A stretch of 35,754 bases of DNA, taken from NCBI GenBank assembly GCA_903889245.1, contig CAISWQ010000084.1:1-35754 (forward strand), given 5' to 3'. The position numbers and the translations under genes were made by a program. The notes below the pieces were generated by a model. It was not told the origin of the DNA and searched no databases. It saw nothing but the letters and a program-made list of their open reading frames with translations. Below are positions 17,721 to 34,638 of the stretch, piece after piece (position 1 is the stretch's first letter; each line of letters opens with the position of its first letter). This DNA is from an uncultured Lentisphaerota bacterium (GTDB lineage Bacteria; Verrucomicrobiota; Kiritimatiellia; CAIQIC01).

Positions 17721-17834
17721 TTTTCCAGGGATGGGAAAGCCGGGGCCGCTGTTTTTCCAAGGCTGGGAACATTTCGGCCCAGACGTTTCCAAGGCTTGGA
17801 AAATGAAAGGGAGTTTTTTCCAAGGCTTGGAAAC
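17721..17834. repeat. Palindrome array B, 4 units, 31-32 bp period
   Basis: Units lie at 17721-17739 (TTTTCCAGGGATGGGAAAG), 17753-17771 (TTTTCCAAGGCTGGGAACA), 17785-17803 (GTTTCCAAGGCTTGGAAAA) and 17816-17834 (TTTTCCAAGGCTTGGAAAC). Steps are 32, 32 and 31 bp. The array fills the gap between the adaptor and pump genes inside one operon and ends 23 bases before the pump's start codon. Conservation rises toward the pump gene. Confidence 0.9.
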
Positions 17835-17857
17835 CTGTGTGAGAAACGGAGCGCAAC

Positions 17858-24491: not shown

Positions 24492-25055
24492 TCAGAGCGC
24501 GAGGAAATTTTTCAGGATGCGCTTGCCGTCTTGCGTCAGGATGGATTCCGGATGGAATTGGACGCCGTGGATCGGGAATTTTTTGTGGCGCAGGCCCATG
24601 ATTTCGCCTTGGTCGGTGTCTGCGGAAATTTCGAGATCGGCGGGCAGGCCTTCGCGCTGGACGATGAGCGAGTGATAACGCGTGGCCTCGAACGGGTTCG
24701 GCATTCCGGCAAAGACGCCGCGGCCATCGTGGCGGATCAACGAGGTCTTGCCGTGCATCAACCGCTCGGCGCGGACCACCTTGCCGCCGAAAACGTGGCC
24801 GAGGCACTGGTGGCCGAGGCAGACGCCGAGCAGCGGCAGCTTGGGCCCAAACTGGCGGATGACCTCGCACGAAATGCCCGCCTGCGGCGGATCGCACGGG
24901 CCGGGGCTGACGAGAATCTTCGCCGGCTTGAGCGCCGCGATTTGCTCCAGCGTGATCGCGTCGTTGCGGTACACCTGCACCTCCGCGCCCAGTTCGCCGA
25001 GATATTGGACGAGGTTGTAGGTGAAGCTGTCGTAGTTGTCTATCACGAGAATCAT
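24492..25055 (-). CDS. trpG: Anthranilate synthase component II (glutamine amidotransferase)
   Basis: A 187-residue class I glutamine amidotransferase. It begins [20 protein letters not shown]. The oxyanion strand is [13 protein letters not shown], the nucleophile is C79 in [11 protein letters not shown], and the His/Glu pair is in VQFHPESI. It supplies ammonia to TrpE for the first committed step to tryptophan, and may double as PabA for folate, as in several bacteria. RBS AGGATGA precedes the ATG at 25055. It is the last gene of the hisF-hisI-trpE-trpG run, separated from trpE by 160 bases containing array C and a hairpin. The 68 bases to the convergent kamA-like gene hold no clear terminator. 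Confidence 0.95.
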
Positions 25056-25128: not shown

Positions 25129-25209
25129 TTTTCCAAGGCTTGGAAAAACGCGGCGTGGTTTTTCCAAGGTTTGGAAAATTCCCGGTTTTCTTTTCCAAGG
25201 CTTGGAAAA
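25129..25209. repeat. Palindrome array C, 3 units, exact 31 bp period
   Basis: Units lie at 25129-25147 (TTTTCCAAGGCTTGGAAAA, a perfect palindrome around a central G), 25160-25178 (TTTTCCAAGGTTTGGAAAA) and 25191-25209 (again the perfect form). Steps are exactly 31 and 31 bp. The array lies between the trpE stop and the trpG start within one transcription direction. It is the best-preserved array in the window. Confidence 0.95.
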
Positions 25210-25215
25210 TGTGTT

Positions 25216-26751
25216 TCATCTACGCCCATCCGTGGCCGACTTTTTCCGCGCGTCGGCGAAGCGGCGGGCGAGGGCCAGCGCCTTGAGCATGCCGCGCGCC
25301 TTGTTCTGCGTTTCCTGAAATTCCTTCTCCGGGTCGCTATCGGCGACGATGCCCGCGCCGGCCTGCACGTAGGCGCGGCCCTGGTCGAGCACGACCGTGC
25401 GGATGGTGATGGCGGAATCGAGGTTGCCATCGAAGCTGAAGTAGCACACCGCGCCGGCATAAGGCCCGCGCCGCGCCTGCTCGAGTTCGGCGATGATCTC
25501 CATCGCGCGGATTTTCGGCGCGCCGCTGACGGTGCCGGCGGGGAAGGTCGCGCGCATCAGGTCGTAGGCGTCACGGCCCGCCTGCAACTCGCCGGTGACG
25601 TCGGTGACGATGTGCATGACGTGGCTGTAGCGCTCGATGGTCATCAGCTCCGGCACGCGCACGCTGCCGAACTGGCAGACGCGGCCGATGTCGTTGCGCG
25701 CGAGATCCACGAGCATGATGTGCTCGGCGCGCTCCTTCGGGTCGGCGAGCAGTTCCTGTTCGAGGCGCTGGTCCTCGGCGGGCGTCGCGCCGCGCGGGCG
25801 TGTGCCGGCGATCGGGCGCGTCTCCACGTGACCGTCCTCGCAACGTACGTGGATTTCCGGCGAGGAGCCGACCAGCGCGCTGCCGCCGAGGTCGAGCAGG
25901 AACATGTAGGGCGAGGGATTGACCGCGCGCAGGGCGCGGTAAACATCGAGCGAATCCTCGACGCCCTCGGCTTCGAAGCGCTGCGAAAGCACGGTTTGGA
26001 TGATGTCGCCGGCGCGGATGTACTCCTTGGCCTTCTCGACCGCGGCCATGAACCTGGCGCGCGGTGTGTTCGAGCGCGGCAGGGGCGTTTCCACCGGCGG
26101 CTGCGCCTCGACCAGCGTCCGCGCCTGCGGCGTTTGCAGGGCGCCGATCAGGAACTCAATCTGCGCGACGGCGTCGGCGTAGGCGCGCTGCGGGTCGCTC
26201 TGCACGTGCGCGTTGACGACGATGCGGATGGTGTGCTGGACGCGGTCAAAGATGATGAGCGCGTCGGTGACCATGAAGACCATGTCCGGCGCGTGCAGGT
26301 CGTCGCGCGTGGGGAGCGGCACACGCGGCTCGAACTGGGCGATGCAGTCATAGCCGAGGAAGCCGACCGCGCCGCCGACGAAGCGGGGCAGGGCGGGGTC
26401 GCGCACCGGCTTGAACTGCCGCATGTAGTCGCGCACGCCATCGAGCGGGTCGGTGTTTTCGCGCACCTGCTTGCCGCCGGCGTCGGTGACCTCCACGCGC
26501 CGCTCCCACGCGCGCAGGATGGCGCGCGGCGTGCCGCCGATGAACGAGTAGCGGCCGACGTTCTCGCCGCCTTCCACGCTCTCCAGCAGGAAGGTGTGGC
26601 TCGCGTGGTCGCGCTGGCGGAGTGCCGTGCGGATGCGCTCGTAGGCGGCGACCGGCGTCTCCTGATCGGCCAGCAGCTCGCGCCACACGGGGATGAGGTT
26701 GCCGTGCGTGGCGCGTTTGAGGAAGGTGGCTTTGTCAGGTTGGCAGGTCAT
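25216..26751 (-). CDS. trpE: Anthranilate synthase component I
   Basis: A 511-residue chorismate-using enzyme of normal TrpE length. It shows LLESVEGGENVGRYSFIG at the N-terminus, the TrpE feedback-site type motif. The catalytic part includes FLLDLGGSALVGSSPEI, RPIAGTRPRG, LLADPKERAEHIMLVDLARND, FPAGTVSGAPKIRAMEII and GAGIVADSDPEKEFQET. It converts chorismate plus ammonia to anthranilate with TrpG. The ATG at 26751 has only a weak Shine-Dalgarno, and its upstream bases are the end of the inverted repeat of the four-helix-bundle element. Translation signals of trpE may therefore have been reshaped by that insertion. Confidence 0.96.
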   Translation of the reverse strand: MTCQPDKATFLKRATHGNLIPVWRELLADQETPVAAYERIRTALRQRDHASHTFLLESVEGGENVGRYSFIGGTPRAILRAWERRVEVTDAGGKQVRENTDPLDGVRDYMRQFKPVRDPALPRFVGGAVGFLGYDCIAQFEPRVPLPTRDDLHAPDMVFMVTDALIIFDRVQHTIRIVVNAHVQSDPQRAYADAVAQIEFLIGALQTPQARTLVEAQPPVETPLPRSNTPRARFMAAVEKAKEYIRAGDIIQTVLSQRFEAEGVEDSLDVYRALRAVNPSPYMFLLDLGGSALVGSSPEIHVRCEDGHVETRPIAGTRPRGATPAEDQRLEQELLADPKERAEHIMLVDLARNDIGRVCQFGSVRVPELMTIERYSHVMHIVTDVTGELQAGRDAYDLMRATFPAGTVSGAPKIRAMEIIAELEQARRGPYAGAVCYFSFDGNLDSAITIRTVVLDQGRAYVQAGAGIVADSDPEKEFQETQNKARGMLKALALARRFADARKKSATDGRR

Positions 26752-26758
26752 GGAATCA

Positions 26759-26783
26759 CCAGAGGTCAGAAGTCAGAGTTCAG
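26759..26783. repeat. Left inverted repeat of the four-helix-bundle element
   Basis: A seven-base-period sequence (AGAGGTC, AGAAGTC, AGAGTTC, with a further AGAAGTC inward to 26790), an exact inverse of 27182-27206 over 25 bases. It contains the stop codon and last codons of the four-helix-bundle gene. Confidence 0.9.
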
Positions 26784-27156
26784 AAGTCAGTAAGAAGGGT
26801 TTCGGGTTGTTGATCATAGAGCCGAGCATCTTGCCGACTTCGGCGCACAGACCGGAAAGTCTGCGGTGTGTTTCATCGTTCAGGTAGTCAGTGTTGCGGG
26901 CGAAATCAATCCACGTATCGGTCTCGGCATTCTCGCCATCTGCATCCGTCAGTTTACTCACGAAATGAGCCTCATATTTTCGCTTCGCCCAAGCCTCGCG
27001 GAGGTTCGCACACACAGATCGCGACGACCTGCGTATCTGGTCGGTCAATGAATAGCGCTCATCTTTCGGAAAAGATTTCGAGACAGCAAAAATCTCCATC
27101 GCGAGGCTGTAAGCCTTTTGATAAGCAATCAAATCTTTCGCTGATCGAATCTGCAT
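26773..27156 (-). CDS. Four-helix-bundle protein (23S rRNA intervening-sequence / bS23 type)
   Basis: A 127-residue protein with the family's usual features: SAKDLIAYQKAYSLAMEIF, SFPKDERYSLTDQIRRSSRSV, ANLREAWAKR, FVSKLTDADGENAETDTWIDFA and YLNDETHRRLSGLCAEVGKML. The family was first met inside 23S rRNA intervening sequences, and the Avd proteins of diversity-generating retroelements share the fold. Its molecular role is not established. Here it stands alone between hisI and trpE. The ATG at 27156 follows a GGAAGAG-type ribosome binding site. The last residues (LLTSEL) and the TGA come from the left inverted repeat, so the repeat and the gene form one unit. Confidence 0.88.
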   Translation of the reverse strand: MQIRSAKDLIAYQKAYSLAMEIFAVSKSFPKDERYSLTDQIRRSSRSVCANLREAWAKRKYEAHFVSKLTDADGENAETDTWIDFARNTDYLNDETHRRLSGLCAEVGKMLGSMINNPKPFLLTSEL

Positions 27157-27209: not shown

Positions 27210-27623
27210 CTACGGGTCGAGGTTGACCAGTTTGCAACTGGCGGGGTCAATCTTGCGGTAATAGCAATTGCGCGGCGCGCCGGTCTTGTTCTTGGTGTGG
27301 CAGATCGCGCCGCGACGCGGGCGCACGCGGTAGAGCAGGCTGTTCTGCTCGCAGTTCACGCGCGCCTCGACGAGGTCGAACGTCTCGCCGCTGGTCTGGC
27401 CCTTTTCCCAAAGCTCGTTGCGCGAGGTGCTCCACAACACGAGCGACTTCGTCTCCAGCGTTTTCCGGAACGCCAGTTCGTTGGTGTAGGCGACGAGGAT
27501 CACCTCGTTCGTGTCCGCATGCTGCACGGCGACGGGGATGATACCCTTCGATTGCCCGACTGCCTTCTCCAGCTTGTTGAAATCCAGCTTCAGGTCCAGT
27601 CCTTCTTCGAGTTCCTTGCTCAT
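27210..27623 (-). CDS. hisI: Phosphoribosyl-AMP cyclohydrolase
   Basis: A 137-residue enzyme for the third step of histidine synthesis (PR-AMP to ProFAR). Motifs are LVAYTNELAFRKTLET, LWSTSRNELWEKGQTSG and GAICHTKNKTGAPRNCYYR, with cysteines 91, 108 and 120. The metal motif that reads D-C-D-x-D in E. coli and B. subtilis HisI is N-C-E-Q-N here. Two aspartates have become Asn and one Glu, which may mark a subfamily with altered metal binding. No HisE domain is fused. It lies 15 bases after hisF, and the four-helix-bundle element begins just past its stop. Confidence 0.93.
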   Translation of the reverse strand: MSKELEEGLDLKLDFNKLEKAVGQSKGIIPVAVQHADTNEVILVAYTNELAFRKTLETKSLVLWSTSRNELWEKGQTSGETFDLVEARVNCEQNSLLYRVRPRRGAICHTKNKTGAPRNCYYRKIDPASCKLVNLDP

Positions 27624-27638: not shown

Positions 27639-28400
27639 TTAAAACCGGACTTCCACGCCTCGCTCGCGCAGGTGTTTTTTCACCTGCGGAATGGTGAACG
27701 TGCCGAAATGGAAAACCGAGGCCGCGAGCACGGCATCGGCTTTGCCGGCGACGAGGCCATCGTAGAAGTGGTCGAGCGTGCCGACGCCGCCGGAGGCGAT
27801 CACCGGCACGGGCACGGCTTCGGCGATGGCGCGGGTCAGTTCCAGGTCATAGCCGGACTTGGTGCCATCCTTGTCCATACTGGTCAGCAGGATTTCGCCC
27901 GCGCCGCGCTGCACACCTTCGCGCGCCCAGGCGATGGCGTCACGCTCGGTCGGCTTGCGCCCGCCGTGGGTATAGACCGTCCAGCCAGGACGACCGACGT
28001 TACGGCGCGCGTCTATCGCGAGCACGATGCACTGGCTGCCGAACATGCCAGAGGTTTCGTTGATGATGTCGGGGTTGAGCAGCGCCGCGGTGTTCAGCGA
28101 AACCTTGTCGGCGCCCGCGAGCAACATCTTGCGCACGTCCGCCGCCACGCGGATGCCGCCGCCGACCGTCAGCGGCATGAAGACCTGTTGTGCGACGGCG
28201 CGGACGACCTCGACGATCGTGTCGCGCGCCTCGTGCGAGGCCGTGATGTCGAGGAACGTCAGTTCGTCGGCGCCTTGCGCCTCATAGGCCTTCGCCTGCT
28301 CGACCGGATTGCCTGCATCGCGCAGTTCGACGAACTTGATGCCCTTGACCACGCGACCGTCCGCGATATCCAGGCACGGTATGATTCGTTTCGCCGGCAT
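27639..28400 (-). CDS. hisF: Imidazole glycerol phosphate synthase cyclase subunit
   Basis: A 253-residue TIM barrel of normal HisF size. The catalytic aspartates are D11 in RIIPCLDI and the Asp of VLAIDARR. Phosphate-binding segments are [24 protein letters not shown] and [13 protein letters not shown]. With HisH (not in this window) it makes imidazole glycerol phosphate and AICAR. It is the first structural gene of the minus-strand hisF-hisI-trpE-trpG run, downstream of the predicted His/Trp attenuator. A GAGCGGAA stretch before the ATG is the likely ribosome binding site. Confidence 0.97.
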
Positions 28401-28411
28401 GTTCCGCTCTT

Positions 28412-28466
28412 ACTCTTAATCGAAACTCTTAACTCCTAATCGAAACTCTTAACTCGTAATCGTAAT
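28412..28466. repeat. Tandem repeat in the hisF leader
   Basis: Two near-identical 20-bp copies lie at 28421-28440 and 28441-28460 (they differ at one base), flanked by partial copies (28412-28420 and CGTAAT at 28461-28466). The internal steps are near seven bases (CGAAACT, CTTAACT, CCTAAT). The block separates the attenuator terminator from the hisF start and would be in the leader RNA of read-through transcripts. Confidence 0.75.
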
Positions 28467-28471
28467 CCCTG

Positions 28472-28504
28472 AAAACAACAAACCCCGGTCAACTTGGCCG
28501 GGGT
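28472..28504 (-). terminator. Attenuator terminator of the his-trp operon
   Basis: On the minus strand ACCCCGG (28504-28498) pairs with CCGGGGT (28488-28482). Two more pairs form inside, after a C-A mismatch. UUGUUGUUUUC follows (28481-28471). It is an intrinsic terminator 71 bases before hisF and after the leader peptide. Its 5' arm overlaps the GACCCC segment that can instead pair with the end of the leader coding region. Confidence 0.85.
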
Positions 28505-28544
28505 CTGGTGCAGTCGGATGGCTTGTGGTCCGACTTAGGACCCC
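28500..28544 (-). promoter_or_regulatory. Antiterminator stem of the his-trp attenuator
   Basis: On the minus strand GGGGTC (28544-28539, in the last codons of the leader peptide) pairs with GACCCC (28505-28500). Inside it AGTCGGA (28535-28529) pairs with TCCGACT (28518-28512). This structure uses five bases of the terminator's 5' arm, so the two exclude each other. A third option is region 1, CGGATGGC in leader codons 5-8 (28568-28561), pairing with GCCATCCG (28522-28515), which would break the inner hairpin. This is the 1:2, 2:3, 3:4 logic of classical attenuation. Confidence 0.8.
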
Positions 28545-28582
28545 GCTTCGCGCCAAGGATGCCATCCGTGCTGCGTCTTCAT
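28535..28582 (-). CDS. Leader peptide of the his-trp operon with two His and two Trp codons
   Basis: Fifteen codons read MKTQHGWHPWREAGS and a TAA. Codons 5 and 8 are His; 7 and 10 are Trp. A ribosome waiting at any of these would cover region 1 but leave the 3' end of the leader free, so the antiterminator could form. A ribosome that reaches the stop would cover GGGGTC and AGTCGGA and release the terminator. The genes downstream make both histidine (hisF, hisI) and tryptophan (trpE, trpG), matching the codon content. There is no Shine-Dalgarno; the predicted -10 box lies eight bases before the ATG, so the transcript may be leaderless. Reading, pairing and coordinates are direct; the mechanism is inferred from enterobacterial trp/his attenuation. 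Confidence 0.85.
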   Translation of the reverse strand: MKTQHGWHPWREAGS

Positions 28583-28590
28583 GCGCGCGG

Positions 28591-28618
28591 AGTCTAATGC
28601 GTTTCCGGCTGGATGCAA
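28591..28618 (-). promoter_or_regulatory. Predicted promoter of the his-trp operon
   Basis: On the minus strand TTGCAT (28618-28613), a 16-base spacer and TAGACT (28596-28591) stand upstream of the leader peptide. The -10 matches four of six bases and the -35 three. The start site would fall at or within two bases of the leader ATG at 28582. Confidence 0.45.
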
Positions 28619-28636
28619 GTTTTTGATTCTGCCGGT

Positions 28637-28686
28637 CCTTTCAAGGCTTGGAAAATCTTGTGGAAAATTGTCCAAGCCTTGGAAAA
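28637..28686. repeat. Palindrome array D, 2 units, 31 bp period
   Basis: Units lie at 28637-28655 (CCTTTCAAGGCTTGGAAAA) and 28668-28686 (TTGTCCAAGCCTTGGAAAA), 31 bp apart. They stand between the predicted his-trp promoter and the divergent ABC exporter genes, so here the array cannot be a terminator for an upstream gene. The remaining 28687-28748 shows no convincing promoter. With the attenuator and repeats this accounts for the 360-bp gap 28401-28760. Confidence 0.85.
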
Positions 28687-28760
28687 TCCGCGCCACCATT
28701 TGCGATGTAGCTGGGCGGCCAAATTTGCTAGCTTCGCGGGCAGTAACCAGGATGGATACC

Positions 28761-29522
28761 ATGACGCTTGCCATCGAAACGCAGGGTTTGACGCGCCAAT
28801 TCGGCACTGTGCGCGCAGTGGATGGACTCGATCTGCGCGTCGAGGCCGGCATGTTCTATGGCTTCCTCGGCCCGAACGGCGCGGGGAAATCCACCACGAT
28901 CAAAATGCTCACCGGTCTGCTCGCACCGACCAGCGGCACGATGCGGATCCTCGACACCGATCTGGGCGAGGCCGAGCGTGCCCGCGCCATCAAGCAGCGC
29001 ATCGGAGTCGTGCCGGAGAACCTGGCGCTGTTCGATAATCTGACGGGGCGCGAGTACCTGACGTTCATCGGGCGCATGTACCTGTTGCCGCCGGACATCA
29101 TCCGCACGCGCTGCCAGGAACTGCTCACGATCATGGACCTCGCGGGTGAGGAGACAAAGCTGACGCTGGAATATTCGCACGGCATGAAGAAGAAGCTCGC
29201 GCTCGCCGCGGCGCTGCTGCCGGATCCCGACCTGCTGTTCCTCGATGAGCCGTTCGAGGGCGTGGACGCGGTGGCGTCCCGGATGTTGCGCGATACGCTG
29301 AAGAGTTTCGTCAAACGCGGCGCGACGGTGTTCCTGACCTCGCACGTGCTGGAGATCGTCGAGAAGCTCTGCACCGATGTAGGCATCATCGCGCAGGGGC
29401 GGCTGGTCCAGCAGGCCTCGATGGCGGAGATCAGCGCGACTGGCTCGCTGGAGGAGTGCTTCCTGAAAGCGGTCGGCAGCGGACAGATCGAGGCGCAGAA
29501 ATTGAGCTGGCTGGAGGATTGA
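28761..29522 (+). CDS. ABC transporter ATP-binding protein
   Basis: A 253-residue nucleotide-binding subunit. Walker A is GPNGAGKST (37-45), the Q loop segment is IGVVPENLALFDNLTG, the signature is the divergent YSHGMKKKLALAAALL, and Walker B is LLFLDEPFEGVD followed by the switch His in FLTSHVLE. This type (CcmA/NatA-like) energises exporters of two subunits. The ATG at 28761 is favoured by AGGA eight bases upstream; one at 28752 has no properly spaced site. The permease gene starts two bases after its stop. Confidence 0.93.
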   Translation: MTLAIETQGLTRQFGTVRAVDGLDLRVEAGMFYGFLGPNGAGKSTTIKMLTGLLAPTSGTMRILDTDLGEAERARAIKQRIGVVPENLALFDNLTGREYLTFIGRMYLLPPDIIRTRCQELLTIMDLAGEETKLTLEYSHGMKKKLALAAALLPDPDLLFLDEPFEGVDAVASRMLRDTLKSFVKRGATVFLTSHVLEIVEKLCTDVGIIAQGRLVQQASMAEISATGSLEECFLKAVGSGQIEAQKLSWLED

Positions 29523-34526: not shown

Positions 34527-34638
34527 TTTTCCAAGCCTTGGAAAAAGAGGTCCTGACTGTTCCAAGGCCCGGAATAATCAAGCCAAGTTTGTCCCGGGCT
34601 TGGAAAAGACAGGGACAGTTTTTCCCAGCCTTGGATAA
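34527..34638. repeat. Palindrome array E, 4 units, exact 31 bp period
   Basis: Units lie at 34527-34545 (TTTTCCAAGCCTTGGAAAA, perfect), 34558-34576 (TGTTCCAAGGCCCGGAATA), 34589-34607 (TTGTCCCGGGCTTGGAAAA) and 34620-34638 (TTTTCCCAGCCTTGGATAA). All three steps are exactly 31 bp although the units have drifted. The 12-base spacers are unrelated. It lies upstream of the multi-receiver gene and downstream of the MoxR gene, both on the minus strand. Confidence 0.9.

Follow-up and report, generated by a model that had tools for sequence, protein, structure and literature searches.

A candidate leader-peptide attenuator with codons for both histidine and tryptophan upstream of mixed his-trp gene clusters in Kiritimatiellia

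Background

Leader-peptide attenuators are textbook single-input sensors, and the locus examined here raises the question of whether one short leader can sense two unrelated amino acids. The window, which is the whole 35,754-nt stretch of DNA that was analysed (CAISWQ010000084.1, contig 84 of a 5.26 Mb draft genome), contains hisF, hisI, trpE, and trpG on the minus strand. A sequence-only reading had proposed that a 15-codon leader with both His and Trp codons, followed by an intrinsic terminator and alternative pairings, controls these genes. This proposal was examined by direct reading of the sequence, RNA folding, profile and covariance model searches, and comparison with related genomes. 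The class was inferred to be Kiritimatiellia, since contigs of related genomes match, by length and position, records named as Lentisphaerae, Kiritimatiellae, or Kiritimatiellaeota bacteria (G003, CAITZM010000055.1; G007, MHBK01000021.1; G304, SLLF01000296.1; G313, JARHXX010000054.1). Below, G numbers denote genomes and f numbers denote families.

Anatomy of the locus

The coordinates, peptide, terminator, and complementary segments given in the sequence-only reading were found to be correct to the base. The features, all on the minus strand, are as follows.

28591-28618 (-), promoter-like pair, -35 TTGCAT (28618-28613), 16-nt spacer, -10 TAGACT (28596-28591), 8 nt before the leader ATG
28535-28582 (-), leader ORF MKTQHGWHPWREAGS with His5, Trp7, His8, and Trp10 (28582-28538, with TAA at 28537-28535), probably leaderless
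28561-28568 (-), region 1, CGGATGGC, overlapping the His5-Gly-Trp7-His8 codons and pairing with GCCATCCG (28522-28515) when no ribosome covers it
28539-28545 (-), region 2, CGGGGTC, the 5' arm of the antiterminator, in the last codons of the ORF
28512-28535 (-), inner hairpin within the antiterminator, AGTCGGA (28535-28529) with TCCGACT (28518-28512)
28499-28505 (-), region 3, GACCCCG, shared by the antiterminator (with region 2) and the terminator (with region 4)
28472-28504 (-), intrinsic terminator, ACCCCGG (28504-28498), CCAAGTTGA, CCGGGGT (28488-28482), and U-rich tail TTTGTTGTTTT
27639-28400 (-), hisF, imidazole glycerol phosphate synthase cyclase subunit
27210-27623 (-), hisI, phosphoribosyl-AMP cyclohydrolase
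26773-27156 (-), 23S rRNA intervening-sequence protein-like four-helix bundle gene
25216-26751 (-), trpE, anthranilate synthase component I
24492-25055 (-), trpG, anthranilate synthase glutamine amidotransferase

The genes were identified using profile searches. hisF matched TIGR00735 at 374 bits (cut-off 294.55), trpE matched TIGR00564 at 570 bits (cut-off 517.7), and trpG matched TIGR00566 at 258 bits (cut-off 121.05). hisI matched PF01502 with E=6.6e-23, whereas the NCBIfam hisI models matched below their cut-offs. The gene between hisI and trpE matched PF05635 with E=2.3e-33 and is also bAvd-like. There is no room for it in G001, where the hisI and trpE matches lie about 17 nt apart, so it looks like an insertion into the operon, with similar-sized gaps in G002 and G003. 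The gene on the other side of the leader (28581-29522 +, an ABC transporter ATPase) is divergent, so the terminator does not end an upstream gene.

The leader RNA folds at -54.7 kcal/mol against -40.3 +/- 3.7 for dinucleotide shuffles (z -3.9, 0 of 200 as low), and the region 1 pairing is part of the minimum free energy fold. A generic terminator scan did not list this terminator and a generic promoter scan listed no site; the promoter-like pair emerged from comparison. Searches against Rfam gave no match at gathering threshold in the window or in 20 related loci. Neither Trp_leader nor His_leader was among the weak matches at loose thresholds, and no T-box match was obtained.

Repeats were also noted. 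Palindromic repeats (TTTTCCAAGGCTTGGAAAA) occur at 17721-17841, 25129-25216, 28638-28693, and 34527-34637, often in arrays with a 31-nt step, and one pair lies just upstream of the promoter-like site while another lies between trpE and trpG. Tandem-like GATTACGAGTTAAGAGTTTCG repeats lie between the terminator and hisF (28405-28470 (-)), within the 71 nt that separate the two, and similar GATTACGA/GATTA runs precede hisF in several relatives.

Conservation of the leader and its codons

A total of 33 leaders of this kind were found in the class. The order hisF-hisI-trpE-trpG is common in the class, and upstream of it 23 leaders were found, all of which contain at least one His and at least one Trp codon. 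These comprise the genus (MNTQHGWH[P/G/S]WR...), the family (MKR[K/Q]VWWH...), and families f2, f8, f10, f15, f20, and f36, for example MVTSWHWHDEGVSAGA, MLNRWWHHVSEGV, MRIARHPQREGWWAGGPARVRG, MSTRNNSHAWHRENGGSR, MKNKYWWHNVGKAGV, and MHVWTHWRSRGG. The three genus homologues, MNTQHGWHPWRSTGS, MNTQHGWHGWREAGS, and MNTQHGWHSWREAGS, keep every His and Trp, and substitutions in the genus avoid these codons except for a synonymous CAC/CAT change at His5. A covariance model built from ten of the leaders, with no condition on codons, was run over 346 genomes and recovered further leaders at hisF (G078, G129, G135, G075, and G073). One model hit, in contig 12 of G042 (MRTWHDW..., no co-oriented biosynthetic gene), was a false positive. 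Among 80 hisF loci of bacteria across many phyla, no similar leader was found except in the record of G003 itself. About a third of the his-trp clusters of the class have no recognisable leader; the same gene order without one was seen in G006, G007, G033, G034, G036, G037, G051, G077, G133, G134, G302, and G304, in some of which the hisF start closely follows an upstream gene.

The codon content of the leaders follows the gene content of the operons. Where hisF is elsewhere and hisI-trpE-trpG remains (G044, G309, G131, and G132), the leaders still have His and Trp (MFTNASNWHHFPQGPVRR, MYKTSAQWHHFPQGPGRR, MQFVGHWRGVDRRAG, and MRLSFRHWRWRQQI), so that all 27 leaders before operons holding his and trp genes, from 18 genera and 8 families, have both, although the peptides otherwise share little. 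Six leaders stand before trpE-trpG without his genes; all have Trp codons and five lack His (MNLKNCWRNSIPGSNRW, MNLKKCWRISGPGSERW, and MNLKNCWRILIPGPDRW in f21; MKNYWWNNLKKP and MKNRFEQKNWRGWRRGP in f20). These Trp-only leaders (G055, G043, G314, G313, and G315) mostly have promoter-like spacing that predicts a leaderless start. The sixth, in G316 (MNPLRWREHMTGRWQR), has one His codon and is possibly a relic, since it branches just outside the hisI-trpE group on the TrpE tree. Within f21, the group with hisI-trpE has WHH leaders and its sister group with trpE alone has W-only leaders. No such leader was found at hisF genes away from trpE, nor at hisG or trpB in ten leader-bearing genomes. A Fisher test of His codon against his genes gave p = 2.5e-5, but this overstates the case because the genomes are related: on the TrpE tree the His-less leaders represent only two events, one nested in f21 between His-bearing groups and the other in a divergent TrpE lineage.

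To determine whether the codon content could arise by chance, random ATG ORFs of 12-22 codons in the same loci were examined. Both residues occur in 7.4% of these, or in 44% if at least two Trp+His codons are required, which was the condition of the leader scan, so the enrichment is weaker than the raw figure. With 18 genera and 8 families all positive, chance is unlikely under either figure, and the codon frequencies agree (Trp 11.1% and His 9.6% in the leaders, against 2.6% and 2.0% in the random ORFs).

For the best-scoring promoter-like site in each leader, the same layout (TTG..., 15-18 nt, -10-like hexamer, 5-11 nt to the start codon) was found in 32 of 33 leaders. The hexamers were chosen by best score, so this support is comparative rather than experimental. 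No Shine-Dalgarno-like sequence is evident before the leader start in the window. The spacing predicts a transcript beginning at or within a few bases of the start codon, so the leader mRNA is probably leaderless. It may also couple ribosome loading to transcription start.

Structure and covariation

MAFFT alone did not align the stems, and a hand-made alignment of ten leaders with N padding was therefore used; it leans on the structure for G012, G038, and G048, and G038 is off by one column. On this alignment the antiterminator structure has 87.9% of cells paired and 9 pairs with changes on both sides, and its covariation score of 0.415, against 0.166 in shuffles, was reached by 0 of 500; sliding the partners destroys the signal. 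All 7 pairs of the inner hairpin show changes on both sides, with 92.8% of cells paired. Compensatory changes between regions 2 and 3 include GGGGTTTC:GAAACCCC in G038, GGGTTC:GAACCC in G048, and CGGGGCGGA:TCCGCCCCG in G306.

In a second test, the bases after GGGG matched the bases before CCCC of the same leader better than those of other leaders (TCC:GGA, TTTC:GAAA, TTTGA:TCAAG, TTCAAC:GTTGAG, CGGA:TCCG, and TTC:GAA), with p about 2.5e-4 on 12 less related leaders. Six hisF-first leaders without a clear GGGG anchor (G004, G005, G031, G129, G130, and G303) were left out. The duplex energy of the ORF end with the terminator arm, compared with shuffles, gave negative z in 20 of 23 hisF-first leaders, but the values were small because of GC richness, and no signal was obtained in the hisI-first leaders. 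The antiterminator is supported by compensatory changes in hisF-first leaders, whereas it is not clear in the four hisI-first leaders nor in a few hisF-first ones (G031, G130, and G303). A GC-rich hairpin plus T-run follows the leader in nearly all relatives.

Predicted mechanism

Equilibrium folding with masked ribosome footprints was performed, but the terminator won in nearly all states and the method could not discriminate between them. Snapshots of the transcript before region 4 is made, with an assumed ribosome footprint, were used instead. In the genus, region 3 is paired with probability 0.85-1.0 for stalls at His5, Trp7, or His8, 0.08-0.58 at Trp10, and 0.03-0.18 with the ribosome at the stop codon. 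Without a ribosome the genus leaders show mixed states (0.28-0.92), and a pairing comparable to that of region 1 is predicted in most relatives. The separation of stall from stop was weaker in G004, G005, G014, and G038. The sequence-only reading had also counted Trp10 among the stalls that favour the antiterminator; a stall there is predicted not to help, because the footprint of the ribosome would reach region 2.

These results are best explained by a ribosome-mediated transcription attenuator that senses the supply of both charged tRNA-His and charged tRNA-Trp through one leader ORF and controls hisF-hisI-trpE-trpG with OR logic. This explanation is considered likely, although in the absence of RNA or expression data the transcription start, translation, stalling, and response to starvation are inferred. 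In this model, a ribosome loads without a Shine-Dalgarno site. If both amino acids are plentiful, it runs to the stop codon and covers region 2 (GGGGTC), region 3 pairs with region 4, and transcription ends near 28472. If either His or Trp is short, the ribosome waits at His5, Trp7, or His8, region 2 pairs with region 3 (GGGGTC:GACCCC) around the AGTCGGA:TCCGACT hairpin, and RNA polymerase goes on into the operon.

Alternative explanations

The main alternative is a tryptophan-only attenuator in which the His codons come with the RNA, because TGGCAT is needed for base pairing in region 1 or is inherited by descent. The hexamer TGGCAT/TGGCAC does recur and overlaps the region 1 pairing in the state without a ribosome, and G316 keeps a His codon without his genes. 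However, His codons also occur outside TGGCAY, before the Trp codons in G048, G031, G129, G130, G131, and G132 and as HH pairs in others; CAC and CAT interchange at His5 in the genus; and His-less leaders were found only where his genes are missing from the operon. This alternative is considered unlikely.

A constitutive or protein-controlled terminator, or a small RNA with its own terminator, upstream of hisF and with an untranslated ORF would be compatible with the lack of an evident Shine-Dalgarno site, the absence of ribosome data, and the equilibrium folding. It appears very improbable, since the peptide diverges while its His/Trp content stays, the promoter-like site is placed to put the ATG at or near the 5' end, and region 2 at the end of the ORF covaries with region 3. 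A chance ORF ahead of a terminator serving the upstream region, for which the weak hit in G042 offers a parallel, is refuted by conservation in 8 families, and the upstream gene is divergent.

Comparison with known attenuators

The device appears to work like, and by the tested features belongs to, ribosome-mediated attenuators, but it is not a member of Rfam Trp_leader or His_leader. As in the trp leader of enterobacteria (trpL; PMC1183508), a short ORF with Trp codons and an antiterminator 2:3 set against a terminator 3:4 precede trpE, but here His is probably read as well, hisF-hisI precede trpE, and no Shine-Dalgarno site is evident. The his leader (hisL) appears to carry a run of seven His codons before his genes, with alternative hairpins, whereas one or two His codons mixed with Trp are found here. 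In Sinorhizobium meliloti (Alphaproteobacteria), the 5' end of the trpL/rnTrpL RNA is the ATG of a 14-aa leader ORF before trpE(G) (PMC7298713), and this leaderless attenuator is described for Trp only. The leaders of ilvGMEDA (Ile/Val/Leu) and thrABC (Thr/Ile) appear to read more than one amino acid, but of one pathway or branch, which His and Trp do not share. The Bacillus subtilis trp supraoperon, with hisC, seems to place a his gene and trp genes under one attenuator, although its sensor is TRAP, a Trp-binding protein, and His is not sensed. The mechanism is classical, while the sensing of two biosynthetically unrelated amino acids appears new, no leader described as reading His and Trp together having been found as far as the literature could be checked.

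It is probable, though not established, that Kiritimatiellia as a class uses a leaderless attenuator that integrates His and Trp as an OR gate, and whose codon set is edited in evolution as his genes join or leave the trp operon; it would be the first attenuator known to sense two unrelated amino acids. A leader of this kind would show that the same device can act as a logic gate, and it adds a phylum outside those in which such leaders were named by a broad 2010 survey (Proteobacteria, Actinobacteria, and Firmicutes; PMC2965389). The comparison gives a natural series (hisF-hisI-trpE, hisI-trpE, and trpE alone) in which codon content follows gene content, which makes the evolution of regulatory input directly testable.
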